Part shown: piece by piece, positions 441-9,213 of the stretch
How the letters are laid out: each line of letters opens with the position of its first letter
How positions within the stretch are numbered: the first letter of the stretch is position 1
Source of the DNA: an uncultured Flavobacteriaceae bacterium
GTDB lineage: Bacteria; Bacteroidota; Bacteroidia; Flavobacteriales; Flavobacteriaceae
Direction: 5' to 3'
Assembly (NCBI GenBank): GCA_905381055.1
Contig: CAJPUR010000002.1
Span: forward strand, 1-64,000
DNA: 64,000 nt
Program-made: the position numbers and the translations under genes
Notes under the pieces: model-generated
Databases searched by the model: none
Told to the model about the DNA's origin: nothing
The model's input: only the letters and a program-made list of their open reading frames with translations

Positions 441-1472
441 ATGAAAAATATAAGCCTAGTCATCATTCTTTTAACTTTTATTTTATCAGGATGTAATACA
501 AATATTAAAAAAACCGAAGAAATTAACCTTTACAGCCAAAGACATTACAATGTTGACAAAAAACAATATGAAAATTTTGAAAAAAAAACAGGTATTAAAA
601 TAAATGTTGTAAAAGCTGGAGCAGATGAATTAATTGAAAGATTAAAAAATGAAGGTGATAATAGCCCAGCTGATTTATTTATTACTGTTGATGCAGGGAA
701 ACTTCAAAAAGGGTCTGAACTGGGTTTGTTTCAAAAAATAAATTTAGAATCTGTTAATTCTAATATCGATCCTGAACTAAAAGATCCAAGCGGTTTTTGG
801 GTTCCCATAACATATAGATCAAGAATAATAGTTTATAGCAATGAAAGAATAAATAAAGATGAGCTTAGTACATACGAAGATTTATCCTCAGAAAAATGGA
901 AAGGCAAAATTTTAGTAAGATCTTCATCAAATGCATATAACCAGGCTTTAATGTCATCAATTATTGCAAACAAAGGATCTGAATTCGCACTAGATTGGTC
1001 AAAAAAAATAGTTAAAAATTTCGCTAGAGATCCAAAAGGAAATGATAGAGATCAAGTTAAAGCAATTGCCTCAGGCCAAGGAGACATCGCAATTGTAAAC
1101 TCATATTATATTGGCTTGCTTCTTTCCTCTGATAAAGAGGAGGAGCTAAAAGCAGGAAAAGCGGTATCTGTTTTTTTTCCAAATCAAGGAATAAATGAAA
1201 GCGGAAGTCATATAAATATATCTGGAATTGGTCTTACAAAAAATGCTCCAAATAAAGAAAATGCTCTTAAACTAATAGAATATTTAACAAGTATTGAGGC
1301 TCAAAAACTTTATGTAAATACGAGTTATGAATATCCTGCCAATCCTAATGTCATGCCAAACGAAATAGTAAAAAAATGGGGGTTATTTAAAAAAGACACT
1401 TTGGATTTAAACTCCCTTGGGGTATACAGGAATGAAGCAATTAAAACATTTGATATATCAGGTTGGAAATAA
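441..1472 (+). CDS. Ferric iron ABC transporter, substrate-binding lipoprotein
   Basis: This is a periplasmic iron-binding protein of the FbpA/FutA class, 343 residues. It has a lipoprotein signal peptide with lipobox LSGC (Cys18), so it is probably anchored in a membrane. The pattern of this family is visible: an N-terminal strand with LYSQRHYN, a DLFITVDAGKL segment near residues 79-90, and a double tyrosine NSYY near residues 219-222, the usual Fe(III)-phenolate ligands. It is followed by permease and ATPase genes in overlapping order, which supports an Fe3+ importer. A dyad overlapping its promoter suggests iron control. Substrate is inferred from the family; thiamine- or phosphonate-binding relatives are less likely given the double tyrosine. 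Confidence 0.88.
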   Translation: MKNISLVIILLTFILSGCNTNIKKTEEINLYSQRHYNVDKKQYENFEKKTGIKINVVKAGADELIERLKNEGDNSPADLFITVDAGKLQKGSELGLFQKINLESVNSNIDPELKDPSGFWVPITYRSRIIVYSNERINKDELSTYEDLSSEKWKGKILVRSSSNAYNQALMSSIIANKGSEFALDWSKKIVKNFARDPKGNDRDQVKAIASGQGDIAIVNSYYIGLLLSSDKEEELKAGKAVSVFFPNQGINESGSHINISGIGLTKNAPNKENALKLIEYLTSIEAQKLYVNTSYEYPANPNVMPNEIVKKWGLFKKDTLDLNSLGVYRNEAIKTFDISGWK

Positions 1473-3076
1473 TAAAAAATTTAAATTTTGAATATAAAAG
1501 ATGGACAGTAGGCAATGTAATTGTTGGATTGGTCCTTCTATTACCAATAGCCACACTTATATTCAATCTTTTTGAATCAGAAAACACTTCATTTAAATAC
1601 CTATGGGAGAATTTACTACTTAGCTATAGTTTAAATACAATTTATTTAGTTTTAATTTCTTCATTAAGTGCAATAATTTTTGGTGTAATACCAGCTTGGA
1701 TAATTAGTAACTATTCATTTAAATTCAGAAAAACGTATGACATCCTTCTTTTTTTACCCTTATCAATTCCTACCTATATAATGGCATTTACCTATAGCGA
1801 CCTATTAAGCTTTACTGGTCCAATTCAATCATTTTTTAGAGACTATTTGCCAGGTTTCGCAGATATTATCAATAAGGATTATTTACAAATCGAAGTTTTA
1901 GGAATCCTACTTGGCCTTGCTCTATATCCGTATATTTATACTGCTGCAAGAATTTCATTTAATTATCTTGGATCAACATATATTGATGTATCTAAAACAT
2001 TAGGATTATCAACATTAAAAACTTTTTGGAAAGTAATTTTACCTTTGTCACTTCCAGCAATAATTTCAGGTCTTTTTTTAGTAATTATGGAAGTTTTAAA
2101 TGAATATGGGGCTGTAAAATATTTTGGAGTTAATACATATACTACTGGAATATTTAGAGCTTGGTTCTCAATGGGAGAAACACAAACTGCTATCCAACTT
2201 GCATGTCTACTACTTCTTTTTGTTTTAATATTATTTCTTATCGAAAAAAAATTGACTTCAAAAAATAAATTTTTCTATCCTTTAAATTCAAGAATTCAAA
2301 AACTCACTGAAATCACTAAGAAAAATTTATTACTTTCTCATGTAATTTGCTTATTCCCTATTTTATTTGGATTTATCATACCAATAATATTTTTAATAAA
2401 TAATTCACTATCGCTTATTAAGGAAATTGACTTTAATGAACTTCTAATACTTTTAATTAATAGCTTAAGCGTTTCTGGGGTTTCATCATTTTTAATTGTA
2501 TCTATAGCACTAATTTTTGTTTTTGTTGAAAACATTTCTAAATCAAAAATCAATAAGTTAATTACTCAGTTTATATCTCTTGGTTATGCTATTCCAGGAG
2601 CGGTTATTGGACTTGGGTTAATCATTTTTTTTACAAGTCTGCAAAAATCATTTTTATCAATTTCACTAATTGGATCATTTTTTATTTTAATTTATGCATA
2701 CATAGTAAGATTTCTTGCTGTTGGAATCTCTCCGATAAGATCCAATATTGAAAAACATCCAGAGACTATTAACGAGGTAGGAATTACTTTAGGTCTAAAC
2801 CCATTAAAAATGTTACAAAAAATTCATTTACCAATTAATAAATTTGCATTAATTAGCGCATTTATTTTAACTTTTGTCGATCTCTTAAAGGAGCTACCAA
2901 TTACTTTAATATTGAGGCCATTTAACTTTGACACCCTAGCTACTCAAACCTATCAATTTTCAATTGAAGAAATGTTAAGAGAATCCTCTATTTATTCTTT
3001 ATCAATAATTTTTCTAGGTTGTATTATGTTATTAATTTTAAAAAAAATACTAAATAAACAATTAGATGTATCTTGA
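1463..3076 (+). CDS. Ferric iron ABC transporter permease (FbpB type)
   Basis: This 537-residue inner-membrane protein has two fused BinD permease halves of about six helices each, as in FbpB/SfuB. Two EAA-type loops that dock the ATPase are visible: one near residues 174-200 (DVSKTLGLSTLKTFWKVILP) and one near 432-462 (NEVGITLGLNPLKML, then IHLP). The start is TTG at 1463, inside the last codons of the binding-protein gene (10-base overlap), which implies translational coupling; no ATG lies close by. Its end overlaps the ATPase gene by 11 bases. Length and arrangement are normal for the family. Confidence 0.88.
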   Translation: MEIIKNLNFEYKRWTVGNVIVGLVLLLPIATLIFNLFESENTSFKYLWENLLLSYSLNTIYLVLISSLSAIIFGVIPAWIISNYSFKFRKTYDILLFLPLSIPTYIMAFTYSDLLSFTGPIQSFFRDYLPGFADIINKDYLQIEVLGILLGLALYPYIYTAARISFNYLGSTYIDVSKTLGLSTLKTFWKVILPLSLPAIISGLFLVIMEVLNEYGAVKYFGVNTYTTGIFRAWFSMGETQTAIQLACLLLLFVLILFLIEKKLTSKNKFFYPLNSRIQKLTEITKKNLLLSHVICLFPILFGFIIPIIFLINNSLSLIKEIDFNELLILLINSLSVSGVSSFLIVSIALIFVFVENISKSKINKLITQFISLGYAIPGAVIGLGLIIFFTSLQKSFLSISLIGSFFILIYAYIVRFLAVGISPIRSNIEKHPETINEVGITLGLNPLKMLQKIHLPINKFALISAFILTFVDLLKELPITLILRPFNFDTLATQTYQFSIEEMLRESSIYSLSIIFLGCIMLLILKKILNKQLDVS

Positions 3077-4028
3077 GGTTAAAGATCTAGTTAAGTATTA
3101 TTCTAAAAATGATCTATTAATTAAAAAATTAAATTTTTCAATTAATAAAGGAGAAATAGTTTCATTTATTGGAGAGAGTGGTTCTGGGAAAACTACATTT
3201 TTAAAATGCATTTCTGGACTTGAAAAAATTAATTCTGGATCTATTTGCCTTAATGAAAAAATATTAAATAATGAAAAAATTTTTATAAAGCCACAAGAAA
3301 GGAATATAAGTTTTGTTTTTCAAGATTATCCTCTTTTCCCTCATCTAAATTTAAAAGAAAACATCATTTTCAATTTGGAAAAAAAATATTTAAAAAAACT
3401 TGATTACATAATTTCTTTAACTGGCTTAGAAAAACTACTAAAAAGATTACCATACGAGTTATCAGGTGGAGAACAACAAAGAGGTTGTATTGCACGCGCT
3501 CTAATTAGAGAGCCCGATCTACTTTTACTTGATGAACCCTTTAGTAATTTAGATTCCAAAATTAAACACACTATAAAAGAGGAACTTCATAAAATAATTA
3601 AAAAATCTGGTGTGACAACAATTTTAGTGACACATGATATTGAAGATTCTTTAAATATTTCGGATAAAATATTAATTTTCAAAGCAGGAGTACTTCAACA
3701 ATTTGATGACCCGATTAAAATGTATTGTGAACCAGCAAATTGTTATTGCGGGAGAATACTAGGAGAACTAAATAAGATTTTAATTGACAAAAAAAACTTT
3801 TACTTAAGACCTGAAAAAATTAAAATTATTTTAAAGTCTCAATATGAAATTTTAGTTGAAACTTCTTTATTTCAGGGTAAAGAATATAAAATTCAGGGTA
3901 ATCATAAAAAAGAGAAATGGGTATTATATTCAAAAAATAATTACAATAAAGGAGATAAAATATATATTGATTTTGACCAAAATGATCTTATATTTTTTGA
4001 ACCTTATTGTGAAAATTTCTTCAAATAA
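3066..4028 (+). CDS. Ferric iron ABC transporter ATP-binding protein (FbpC type)
   Basis: This 320-residue ABC ATPase powers the importer encoded just upstream. The Walker A motif GESGSGKTT is at residues 36-44, a Q-loop lies in FVFQDYPLFPHL near 91, the signature LSGGEQQR is near 132-139, Walker B LLLLDEP near 151-157 and the switch histidine in LVTHD. The C-terminal part, after about residue 230, is a short regulatory domain starting LRPEKIKI, as in FbpC/PotA-like subunits. The ATG at 3066 overlaps the permease stop by 11 bases. The gene ends next to the stop codon of a convergent cysteine-rich mini-gene. Confidence 0.9.
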   Translation: MYLEVKDLVKYYSKNDLLIKKLNFSINKGEIVSFIGESGSGKTTFLKCISGLEKINSGSICLNEKILNNEKIFIKPQERNISFVFQDYPLFPHLNLKENIIFNLEKKYLKKLDYIISLTGLEKLLKRLPYELSGGEQQRGCIARALIREPDLLLLDEPFSNLDSKIKHTIKEELHKIIKKSGVTTILVTHDIEDSLNISDKILIFKAGVLQQFDDPIKMYCEPANCYCGRILGELNKILIDKKNFYLRPEKIKIILKSQYEILVETSLFQGKEYKIQGNHKKEKWVLYSKNNYNKGDKIYIDFDQNDLIFFEPYCENFFK

Positions 4029-4106
4029 TTAACAATTACATCTTTCACAATTACAATTATTACAACTACATTTTGTCGAACAATAATCACAAACACAATC
4101 TTTCAT
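4029..4106 (-). CDS. Cysteine-rich 25-residue peptide, metallothionein-like
   Basis: On the minus strand an ATG at 4106-4104 opens a 25-codon frame ending in TAA at 4031-4029, with no space between its stop and that of the iron ATPase gene. Nine of 25 residues are cysteine, at positions 4, 6, 9, 13, 15, 18, 20, 23 and 25, mostly in CxC pairs with Asn, Asp, Ser and Lys between them; it ends CNC. All nine are TGT codons. CxC-dense peptides of this size resemble small copper or zinc metallothioneins. A near-consensus -7 box (TATATTTA, minus, 4133-4126) lies 19 bases before the ATG. I do not know a named family. The reading is direct; metal binding is inference, and expression is unproven. Confidence 0.6.
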   Translation of the reverse strand: MKDCVCDYCSTKCSCNNCNCERCNC

Positions 4107-4162
4107 ATATATTGTACTTAACTTATAAATATAGGAAAATAATGAATATGATTTTTTATTAG

Positions 4163-4180
4163 TAGATTTGAAAAAATCTA
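4163..4180 (+). promoter_or_regulatory. Promoter -7 box inside an inverted repeat
   Basis: TAGATTTG (4163-4170) is an exact match to TAnnTTTG and lies 20 bases before the symporter ATG. The same bases form the left arm of a perfect dyad TAGATTT-GAAA-AAATCTA (4163-4180) that spans the -7 box and the expected transcription start. It could be an operator or a hairpin at the 5' end of the mRNA. Confidence 0.55.
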
Positions 4181-4190
4181 AACAATAAAA

Positions 4191-5876
4191 ATGGAAATTT
4201 CAACAATTGATATAATAGTATTTATACTCTATGCTTTAGTTATTTTAGGTATTGGGTTATATGTTTCAAGAGAAAAAAAAGGGAAAAACAAAAGTGCGGA
4301 AGATTATTTTCTTGCTGGAAAATCTTTGCCTTGGTGGGCAATAGGAGCATCTCTTATTGCAGCAAATATTTCAGCTGAACAATTTATTGGAATGTCAGGG
4401 TCTGGATTTGCCCTTGGCTTAGCAATAGCGTCATATGAGTGGATGGCAGCCATTACTCTTCTTGTTGTTGGAAAATTCTTTCTCCCAATTTTTATTGAAA
4501 AAGGATTATATACAATACCGGAATTTATTGAAAAAAGGTTTAGCACAAATCTAAAAACAATACTTGCTGTTTTTTGGATTGCATTATTTGTTTTTGTGAA
4601 TTTAACTACAGTACTATACCTAGGAGGTAAGGCCTTAGATACTGTTATCGGAAATGGAGATGGTTCAATTTTTCTAAATAGTATAATTGGTCTTGGCCTT
4701 TTTGCTGCTGCTTATTCTTTATGGGGAGGATTAGCCGCTGTAGCTTGGACAGACGTAGTTCAAGTAGTACTTCTTATTTTTGGAGGTTTGTTAATGACCT
4801 ATTTCGCTTTAACTAATGTTACTGAGTCTGGAAATTTTATAGATGGATTAAAATATGTTTATAATGCTGTACCAGAAAGATTTTCAATGATACTCTCCAA
4901 AGGGGAAATAATTACTCCCAACGGCCGTGATGCTTGGAATGACCTCCCAGGAATAGCTGTACTAATTGGAGGGATGTGGGTTGCTAATTTATATTATTGG
5001 GGATTTAATCAATACATAATTCAAAGGACCTTAGCTGCAAAAAGCCTCGAAGAGGGTCAAAAGGGTATAGCCTTTGCTGCATTTTTAAAATTGATTATAC
5101 CAGTAATAGTTGTGCTGCCAGGGATCATAGCCTATGTAATGAATTTAGATGAATCCGGCTCTTTAACTCGTGAATCTATTGACCAAGGATTTATTGGTTC
5201 AAATGGAAATATTGCAAATGATAATGCTGCCCCTTGGTTAATTAAAAACTTTATCCCTGTTGGAATTAAAGGCCTTATTTTAGCTGCTTTGTCAGCGGCT
5301 ATTGTTTCATCGCTGGCATCAATGATAAATTCTACCTCAACAATTTTCACGATGGATATATACAAATCTATTTTTAACAAAAAAGCTAATGATAAGAAAA
5401 TGGTGAAAGTTGGTCGTTTAACTGGTTTAGTATCATTAATTATTGCTATGTTGATTGCCCCTCAACTTGGAAATTTAGGTCAAGTCTTTCAATTCATTCA
5501 AGAATATACTGGAGTTGTTAGCCCCGGGATTTTAGGAGTTTTTCTGATGGGTTTATTCTACAAAAAAGCTACTAACAATGCAGCTATTTGGGGAGTCATA
5601 TCATCAATTCCAATTGCTATGTATTTTAAAGTAGCACCAAATGGATGGTCCAATTCGTCAATTTTTATTGATAATATTCCATTTATGCATCAAATGCTGA
5701 TAACTTGTCTTGGGACAATATTTATAATTATTAGTATTAGCTATTTAGAAGGGAATAAAGAGGACCCTAAAGGAATTAAACTAAGCAAAAGTATTTTTGA
5801 TACATCGCAATCATTCAATATTTCTGCCATTTCAATAATGCTGATAACTGCATTTTTATATGCAATATTTTGGTAA
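4191..5876 (+). CDS. Sodium:solute symporter, SGLT-like sugar transporter
   Basis: This 561-residue inner-membrane protein belongs to the SSS family (SLC5 type), which couples Na+ entry to uptake of sugars or other small solutes. The family pattern is clear: AEDYFLAGKSLPWWAIGASL near residues 36-55, AANISAEQFIGMSGSGFA right after, and about fourteen hydrophobic helices with the last at the C-terminus. Its N-terminal half resembles bacterial SGLT/galactose-type carriers, so a sugar is the best guess. It has its own promoter. The next two genes encode small unknown proteins that do not reveal the substrate. A second, shorter SSS protein lies at 42683-44221. Confidence 0.85.
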   Translation: MEISTIDIIVFILYALVILGIGLYVSREKKGKNKSAEDYFLAGKSLPWWAIGASLIAANISAEQFIGMSGSGFALGLAIASYEWMAAITLLVVGKFFLPIFIEKGLYTIPEFIEKRFSTNLKTILAVFWIALFVFVNLTTVLYLGGKALDTVIGNGDGSIFLNSIIGLGLFAAAYSLWGGLAAVAWTDVVQVVLLIFGGLLMTYFALTNVTESGNFIDGLKYVYNAVPERFSMILSKGEIITPNGRDAWNDLPGIAVLIGGMWVANLYYWGFNQYIIQRTLAAKSLEEGQKGIAFAAFLKLIIPVIVVLPGIIAYVMNLDESGSLTRESIDQGFIGSNGNIANDNAAPWLIKNFIPVGIKGLILAALSAAIVSSLASMINSTSTIFTMDIYKSIFNKKANDKKMVKVGRLTGLVSLIIAMLIAPQLGNLGQVFQFIQEYTGVVSPGILGVFLMGLFYKKATNNAAIWGVISSIPIAMYFKVAPNGWSNSSIFIDNIPFMHQMLITCLGTIFIIISISYLEGNKEDPKGIKLSKSIFDTSQSFNISAISIMLITAFLYAIFW

Positions 5877-7962: not shown

Positions 7963-9213
7963 ATGAAAAATATATTAAAAATATCAACTTTACTTTCTTT
8001 AATTTTAATAGTTTCATGTTCAAAGGATCCTGATCCTATTTCCTATGAAACATTAATTATTCAGGAAGTGCCTACAACTGTTATCCAGGAGGTACCTGGT
8101 CCTACTGTAACTGTGAATGTCCCAACTCCTATTCCCCCACCTGATTATGATTTCAATAGACAGGGAGTTTCTACCGTTTACTATACTGGACAAACCAGTA
8201 GACTTAAAATGGCTGCAGCTTTAGGATCTGCAATGAATAGTAATACTTCAACTAAAGAACAGATTAAAAATATGTTTGACAATGGTGAAGGGTTTTCTGA
8301 TGCCACTTTAAATGGAACAGGTAAAAAAGTTGGAAATAAAACTGGAGCTTATGGTTCAGCTACTGTTAAGCCAATATTTGATACATGGATTACTGACTTT
8401 GTTGATAATGTAATTCCTGCATGGAATAATGACGCTGCAAAAGGAGTAGCCGGAAAATATACAGACCCAGGAACTGGAGGCAGAACGGTTTATATTAACA
8501 AACAAGGTAAAGAATACAACCAACTATTCATGAAAGGCTTAATTGGAGGAATGGCAAATGACCAAATCATAAACGGTTATTTGTCACAAAGTAAACTTGA
8601 TGGAGTAAAAGCAAATAATGACAGTGGAGTATTTGAATATACTTCACCAGGAGCTGCTGAAGCTAACGTTACTAAAATGGAACATTATTGGGATGAAGGA
8701 TTTGGTTATCTATATGGTCTTGACAATCAAACAAATCCTCAACTGGGTGCTTCAGGCGATGTATTACTAAATAAATACCTAAAGAAAATTGAAGCAAGTG
8801 ATGAGCCAGGAATAGCAAAAAAAATATATGATGCCTTTACATTAGGAAGGGCAGCTATTACTGCTAAAAATTACACTCTCAGAGATGAGCAGGCTAAAAT
8901 TATTAAAGTTGAATTATCTAAAGTCATAGGTTATAAAGCTGCTTACTATATGTATAGTGGGGGAAGCAATATAGATTCAGGTAAATGGGCTAACGCAATG
9001 CATGCCTTATCAGAAGGTTATGGTTTTATTTTGAGTCTTCAATATACTCAAAAAGCTGACGGGACTCCATATATGACTAATGCTGAAGTAAATGCCTTAC
9101 TTGCAGAACTGGATGCAGGAGACGGTTTTTGGGACCATACAAAAGCTACTTTAGGAGTAATAGGTAAGAAAATAACCGATGCAACTGGTTTGTTGCCTCA
9201 AAACGTTTACTAA
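7963..9213 (+). CDS. DUF4856 lipoprotein, iron-cluster associated
   Basis: This 416-residue lipoprotein has a lipobox ending in Cys19 (LIVSC) and a Thr/Val/Pro-rich spacer to about residue 65. The folded domain matches DUF4856 as I know it: YDFNRQGVSTVYYTGQTSRL at its start, MKGLIGGMANDQIINGYL in the middle, MEHYWDEGFGYLYGL, and a late SEGYGFILSLQYT. These proteins are usually encoded beside imelysin and TonB receptors in Bacteroidota and are thought to work in iron uptake at the outer membrane. No catalytic motif is apparent. It is the first gene of the cluster and ends 95 bases before imelysin; a strong stem-loop lies in that gap. Confidence 0.85.
   Translation: MKNILKISTLLSLILIVSCSKDPDPISYETLIIQEVPTTVIQEVPGPTVTVNVPTPIPPPDYDFNRQGVSTVYYTGQTSRLKMAAALGSAMNSNTSTKEQIKNMFDNGEGFSDATLNGTGKKVGNKTGAYGSATVKPIFDTWITDFVDNVIPAWNNDAAKGVAGKYTDPGTGGRTVYINKQGKEYNQLFMKGLIGGMANDQIINGYLSQSKLDGVKANNDSGVFEYTSPGAAEANVTKMEHYWDEGFGYLYGLDNQTNPQLGASGDVLLNKYLKKIEASDEPGIAKKIYDAFTLGRAAITAKNYTLRDEQAKIIKVELSKVIGYKAAYYMYSGGSNIDSGKWANAMHALSEGYGFILSLQYTQKADGTPYMTNAEVNALLAELDAGDGFWDHTKATLGVIGKKITDATGLLPQNVY

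Follow-up and report, generated by a model that had tools for sequence, protein, structure and literature searches.

The locus and its neighbors

We analyzed a window of 64,000 nucleotides (the whole stretch of DNA introduced above) from an uncultured Flavobacteriaceae bacterium, in which a short minus-strand frame, hereafter the mini-gene (Table 1), is translated as MKDCVCDYCSTKCSCNNCNCERCNC followed by a stop codon. Translation agrees with the initial annotation, made from the letters alone, that nine of the 25 residues are cysteine, at positions 4, 6, 9, 13, 15, 18, 20, 23, and 25; with 9/25 cysteines the product displays the trait of the metallothionein class, namely a very short, cysteine-rich chain with CxC and CxxC spacings. 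The stop of the mini-gene was also correctly described as touching that of the iron ATPase gene, as the ATPase frame ends at 4028 and the mini-gene stop occupies 4029-4031. The near-consensus -7 box reported ahead of the frame is present as well: it is one base away from TAnnTTTG, the flavobacterial -7 consensus given in PMC9723704. The mini-gene probably runs from a housekeeping promoter behind this TATATTTA box. A search of the window against Rfam gave no match.

Table 1. Coordinates of the mini-gene and of surrounding features in the window
Feature	Coordinates	Strand	Remarks
Mini-gene, putatively metallothionein-like, 25 residues, 9 Cys	4029..4106	-	Translation, conservation, shuffles, profile test
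TATATTTA, putative near-consensus sigma-A -7 box	4126..4133	-	Box end 20 bases upstream of ATG
Importer lipoprotein, iron-binding-protein-like	441..1472	+	Context only
Importer permease	1463..3076	+	Context only
ATPase of ferric-iron-type ABC importer	3066..4028	+	Convergent neighbor, judged outside the system; also neighbor in G001 and G003
TAGATTTG, fits -7 box of symporter gene	4163-4170		
Sodium:solute symporter	4191..5876	+	Divergent neighbor; context only

The adjoining importer had been assigned to the ferric-iron type, and its binding protein bears this out by matching iron-binding proteins (e.g., PDB 2pt1, 6e-95). It looks like a chance neighbor of the mini-gene. A plasmid blastn search with the ATPase region as query was set aside, its matches being unrelated ABC genes. 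Elsewhere in the window, a DUF4856 lipoprotein-like gene lies at 7963-9213 (+).

According to the initial annotation, a chance AT-rich frame would not give such a cysteine density, and both shuffles and Markov simulations agree. The cysteine skeleton occurs once in the window and in 0/100 dinucleotide-preserving shuffles, and in 200 simulated first-order Markov windows, ATG frames of 18-50 codons never reached so much as six cysteines at 20%. By computation, the window frame is a real gene and not a chance frame.

Conservation within the genus

The genus is represented by four genomes: the window's own (G000), G001 (Flavobacteriaceae bacterium TMED220), G002, and G003. The G001 product, MKXCSCNYCLTKCSCXDCSCERCDC, is unchanged relative to the window in frame length, place, neighbors, and all nine cysteines (9/9). 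Among the fully read codons, six differences between G000 and G001 change the residue and two are synonymous (codon 13, which encodes cysteine, and codon 22); two further codons contain an unread base, and the change in codon 16 is necessarily residue-changing. In the comparison of synonymous and non-synonymous change that had been proposed as a check, the cysteines are fixed and the non-synonymous share is not low overall.

At the corresponding place, G003 carries a gene of 31 residues and 12 cysteines, with an acetyltransferase gene inserted beside it. In G002, the importer ATPase and the symporter are present with a short gap between them and no such frame. Absence of the frame in relatives, which the initial annotation had named as evidence against its proposal, is therefore true for one of the three congeners (G002) and not for G001 or G003; we read the absence in G002 as a loss. 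The importer and symporter neighbors are common to three of the four congeners. Separately, the importer ATPase gene of G001 has a further, interrupted copy on contig 26 (L270, L273), and a 40-codon cysteine-containing frame lies downstream of that copy.

A family of mini-proteins in Flavobacteriaceae

A tblastn search of 397 genomes with the 25-residue window query returned 23 places besides its own (E 0.012 to 0.98). Six matched loci that were examined (L003-L006, L008, and L010) were rejected, as each overlaps a longer frame read in a different phase or from the opposite strand, and the remaining places were treated as chance. True relatives other than the one in G001 escaped this query and were recovered with the 31-residue G003 query and with a profile. 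With the G003 query, 37 of the 397 genomes matched at E ≤ 0.1, and 36 of these matches cover residues 1-3 to 31; the 20 loci fetched hold short frames with 11 cysteines (12 in G003 itself) arranged as C.C.C..C....C..C.C..C.C..C.C.

A family profile of 22 sequences, including three from the window's genus, matched 72/397 Flavobacteriaceae genomes in 50/237 genera, once per genome, and 68 of these 72 genomes did so at E < 0.001. The window protein, itself part of that profile, scores E = 0.066, and the match in G329 holds an in-frame stop. Family members span 25-39 residues overall and mostly 30-39, with histidine mostly absent; the relatives have 28-36 residues and mostly 11 cysteines, and divergent ones have 37-39 residues. 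In 19 gap-free genes of 33 codons, the first two bases of the 11 cysteine codons are constant and the third base varies. Selection on the cysteines, like the family itself, is thus a computed result.

An independent profile was built from 33 sequences with the window's genus excluded. Against it, the window protein scores 9.7 bits and outranks 2995 of 3000 shuffled versions of itself, the other five reaching this score, so its cysteine spacing fits the family beyond composition; the G001 score was reached by 1/3000 shuffles and that of G003 by 0/3000. Nine of the 11 family cysteines align with the window protein. Because the window protein outscores nearly all of its residue shuffles against the genus-free profile, we read the window gene as a family member, and best as a shortened one without two of the 11 family cysteines.

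The family appears to be confined to Flavobacteriaceae in the samples searched. In the order sample, 5/296 genomes match, all of them Flavobacteriaceae; in the phylum sample, 8/345 match, of which five are Flavobacteriaceae and three lie outside at E 0.048-0.094 and were treated as chance. Both samples include members of Flavobacteriaceae, and neither yielded a convincing match elsewhere. A Pfam scan of 22 members gave no match at E 1, and NCBIfam gave a single match for one of the 22, at 0.044, to an unrelated beta-helix model. A profile search of PDB with the mini-family matched no chain. Scans of public collections for the cysteine skeleton yielded at least 1052 places in at least 238 loci, mostly long cysteine runs; a filter on cysteine number left 16, and among the matches listed only TMED220 resembles the mini-gene. 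One side observation is a 142-codon frame with the same nine-cysteine skeleton (CQCPNCTGVCTCETCLCGSCGC) on the minus strand of L053, from a Schlesneria MAG, possibly an unrelated planctomycete metallothionein. A search of open-licence literature found no description of the mini-protein family or of a SigZ-metallothionein unit, and the family is apparently undescribed.

Pairing with a SigZ-type sigma factor

Forty regions around family members were fetched, L331-L353 being mostly high-scoring matches and L354-L370 small or weak cases; L362, L364, and L369 have no intact mini-gene and were omitted from neighborhood counts, leaving 37 loci. In all 23 loci of the first set (23/23, L331-L353), the nearest downstream neighbor of the mini-gene on its own strand, 41-244 bases away, encodes an ECF sigma factor. 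In the second set, 14 loci keep an intact mini-gene, and a SigZ-type gene adjoins it in none of them. Across the 37 loci, SigZ is the only neighbor cluster keeping to the gene, and no anti-sigma gene is apparent.

In NCBIfam, all five partner sigma factors scanned match SigZ models best, with the curated cut-off of TIGR02959 passed by 1/5 and that of NF007215 by 0/5. The partners carry a C-terminal tail with CC and CxxC, in which Cys 154, 155, 175, and 178 are invariant in 23/23; between sigma2 and sigma4 they have a single invariant Cys96 and no CxC motif. In PDB, a profile search with SigZ matched ECF sigma factors alone, all of them lacking the tail. Tail-bearing SigZ is paired with the mini-gene in 26/26 such loci examined, a computed result.

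G190 (L364/L449) has the motif described below, together with a frameshifted mini-gene copy and a truncated sigma frame. Nine plasmid records carry SigZ, and the two examined have no mini-gene. In an unannotated record of Vibrio sp. THAF191d (L483 4691-5543), a cysteine-tailed SigZ-like factor directly follows a 97-residue frame resembling an ArsR-type regulator; the cysteine tail of SigZ may therefore predate Flavobacteriaceae.

A promoter-like motif upstream of the unit

The motif TGCATCTTTTT-N12-GTCTWWT lies upstream of the mini-gene in 23/23 loci L331-L353 with 0-2 mismatches, and its end is 24-35 positions from the ATG in 22 loci and 64 in one. Allowing up to three mismatches, it is absent at the gene in 14 orphan loci, in the window, and in G001.

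We searched for the motif across 49 positive genomes picked from 74 (mainly good matches) and across 52 control genomes (35 negative and 17 of the window's genus or orphans). With at most one mismatch, it was found in 47 of the 49 positive genomes at 53 places, and the reversed pattern at 4; in the controls, it was found at 9 places in 8 genomes, and the reversed pattern again at 4. Coordinates compared by hand place 47 of the motif occurrences, one per genome, just upstream of the mini-gene. The two positive genomes without the motif at this threshold are G124 and G384, the latter having it at two mismatches. Four of the six additional occurrences in positive genomes fall inside genes, and the other two are in G086 and G312; the exact copy in control G002 also sits inside a gene. 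The motif was found in 27 viral contigs, in none of them before a cysteine-rich frame. By these computed counts, it is nearly unique to the mini-gene unit in the genomes searched.

Two of the extra places are observations in their own right. In G312 (L448 2972-3353), an exact second copy shares bases with the earliest candidate start codon of a DUF3703 frame that adjoins the unit on its upstream side, and the next methionine of that frame lies 16 bases past this codon. In G086 (L451 1519-2487), a copy with one mismatch lies 21 bases before a gene resembling a CDF cation exporter.

Genomes without SigZ and divergent units

A SigZ profile run on the 52 genomes separates its matches by a clean gap, with matches at 8.6e-34 or better and then none until 1.5e-22. 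Matches at SigZ level occur in 7 of the 35 profile-negative genomes and in the weakly positive G220. Among the negatives, three (G034, G222, and G163) have a SigZ with the CC...CxxC tail, and each carries a divergent cysteine-rich gene of 37-39 residues with a similar motif upstream. In the other four negatives and G220, the tail of the examined SigZ-like copies departs from CC...CxxC (that of G010 has the terminal CxxC without CC), and no divergent cysteine-rich gene is nearby.

Fifteen genomes of at most 2.1 Mb have a mini-gene match, and 14 of them were tested for SigZ (G000, G001, G003, G055, G274, G084, G292, G139, G326, G334, G335, G142, G068, and G327; G329 was left out). None of the 14 has a SigZ-level match (1e-30 or better); completeness is below 90% in 11 of these assemblies, which makes single absences weak and leaves the overall pattern stronger. 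In the window's genome, which is 91% complete, the best SigZ-profile match is 4.7e-17, below SigZ level, and the motif is absent at the gene.

Metal(loid) genes near SigZ-type loci

Most units examined have no recognized metal gene alongside. Three SigZ-type loci adjoin arsenic genes: G128 and G022 (arsM) and G163 (arsR to acr3). In G163, an arsR-family gene, a DUF6428 gene, a third gene, and an ACR3 gene are followed directly by the unit on the same strand; the third gene has no model match and reads like an arsenate reductase. In G128 (L440 2225-4013), an arsenite methyltransferase gene comes after a SigZ-like gene. This locus has two sequences resembling the motif, one with two mismatches and one with three, the latter lying 25 positions before the methyltransferase gene; SigZ may have an arsenic regulon here that lacks a mini-gene. 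In G022, the arsenite methyltransferase gene is about 1 kb downstream of the SigZ-like gene, and the motif, with three mismatches, coincides in part with a run of T resembling a terminator. Both SigZ-like genes beside arsM lack a mini-gene and the full CC...CxxC tail. Both methyltransferases are above the NF008823 cut-off, and ACR3 is above that of TIGR00832. At L357 and L360, from two genomes of one small-genome genus, a single gene separates the mini-gene from a CDF exporter gene upstream. Arsenite and zinc/cadmium-like ions are leads as candidate ligands of the mini-protein.

Comparison with known systems

Metallothioneins are a functional class comprising many unrelated families. The copper metallothionein of Neurospora is a single-domain fungal metallothionein, SmtA, BmtA, and PmtA belong to Pfam PF02069, and SmtA is controlled by SmtB. 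Fungal and mammalian metallothioneins differ from the mini-proteins in cysteine spacing. Like the fungal single-domain proteins and the domains of the mammalian ones, the mini-proteins are short with cysteines mainly in CxC; unlike them, they are bacterial, and we claim no sequence relationship. They share small size and cysteine richness with SmtA/BmtA/PmtA and MymT and differ from these in having 25-39 residues, mostly no histidine, and no Pfam match (22 scanned). The partner of the mini-protein is a sigma factor and not a repressor; MymT is controlled by its own copper regulator RicR (PMC10141476). The mammalian beta and alpha domains are described in PMC10243857 as forming Zn3Cys9 and Zn4Cys11 clusters, whose cysteine numbers (9 and 11) equal those of the window member and of the common family form.

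For the sigma factor, the closest parallel is with CorE/CorE2 of Myxococcus xanthus, formerly ECF44 and now ECF238, which have a metal-sensing, short C-terminal cysteine-rich extension and no linked anti-sigma factor (PMC3107203 and PMC8999054). Like CorE, the SigZ partners carry a C-terminal cysteine-rich extension, with four invariant cysteines in 23/23. The CorE tail has six cysteines in 38 residues, whereas the SigZ partners have four, as CC-x19-C-x2-C, and lack the CorE-like linker CxC. The CorE targets named in PMC10141476 are oxidase and ATPase genes and do not include a mini-protein, whereas the SigZ partners adjoin a mini-protein gene. Like SigZ of Bacillus subtilis, the partner sigma factors are recognized best by SigZ models; the B. 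subtilis protein is listed just as "ECF", with no function given, in a 2023 table (PMC10141391). One SigZ from Priestia shares the CC of the tail and no more, whereas the flavobacterial partners have CC and CxxC.

Interpretation

The initial annotation had proposed a very small metallothionein or metal chaperone. The conservation of cysteines and spacing across many genera supports the former, and metallothionein-like is the best reading of the mini-protein on sequence grounds; a chaperone for the importer is unsupported, because the mini-gene lies elsewhere in the examined relatives outside the genus and the genes converge here. We consider it rather likely that the window frame is real and encodes a minimal metallothionein-like protein, being a shortened family member, and that in many relatives its counterpart belongs to a SigZ-linked, self-regulated metal(loid)-stress unit.

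From the cysteine pattern, the tail, and the motif, we infer metal binding, the kind of ion, the action of SigZ on the motif, and the feedback, as follows. As a flexible polypeptide, the mini-protein would fold its CxC and CxxC thiols around ions of soft metals or metalloids. In many relatives, the mini-gene stands first in a two-gene unit with the SigZ-type ECF sigma factor; metal(loid) stress would act on the four-cysteine tail, SigZ would drive the promoter of its own unit, and the mini-protein, once made, would bind the ion and end the signal. The window's lineage would retain the binding protein only. Direct sensing by the SigZ tail is suggested by analogy with CorE (PMC3107203 and PMC8999054). 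A more specific scenario, which we offer tentatively and regard as somewhat doubtful, is that of a one-target sigma factor of ECF type: with its cysteine tail it would sense metal(loid)s, and in most genomes it would drive a single promoter, that of its own operon. The minimal metallothionein of this operon would both neutralize the ion, which might be arsenite bound by three thiols each, and strip it from the sigma tail, switching itself off; streamlined ocean lineages would have kept the metallothionein alone, always on.

Other readings of the same evidence have to be weighed. The mini-protein might be chiefly a regulator that gives metal to the SigZ tail or removes it from there, acting as a soluble anti-sigma factor or a metal donor, with detoxification secondary. 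Its pairing with tail-bearing SigZ in every one of the 26 loci speaks for this, as do the near-uniqueness of the motif, by which the unit may mainly control itself, and the lack of a consistent neighbor cluster besides SigZ, which leaves no anti-sigma gene apparent. However, the 14 small-genome members without SigZ or motif argue for a use of their own there, even with incomplete assemblies allowed for, and we judge the regulatory reading unlikely. That the protein is a thiol/redox buffer or oxidative-stress protein and not a metal binder seems to us quite improbable: the very high thiol content fits, and pairing with an ECF sigma factor is compatible with oxidative signals, but the regular CxC/CxxC spacing is under selection and the informative neighbors of SigZ-type genes, though few, are metal(loid) genes.

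We give a low probability to a chaperone or sensor peptide for the adjacent ferric-iron importer or symporter. These neighbors are shared in three of four congeners, but the mini-gene is on the strand opposite both, it is placed elsewhere in other lineages, often with SigZ, and G002 retains the ATPase and symporter without it. A short cysteine-rich gene could also encode the precursor of a ribosomally made modified peptide (a copper-binding RiPP or similar), an idea we hold to be very improbable, as the alignment shows no leader-core division and SigZ is the sole neighbor cluster keeping to the gene in 37 loci, where the scan for modifying enzymes covered part of the neighbors. The frame is short, under the usual length thresholds, as a chance open frame might be, and this last reading is scarcely credible, being refuted by conservation, shuffles, simulations, and the family profile.

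The metallothionein-like reading would add to a large bacterial family an apparently undescribed group, among the smallest metallothionein-like proteins known to us. A dedicated sigma factor would be a mode of control that we have not found described for metallothioneins, and the SigZ group would gain a testable signal and target. More broadly, genes of only 25-35 codons, under selection and without a Pfam or NCBIfam model, are present in about a fifth of the sampled genera (50/237).
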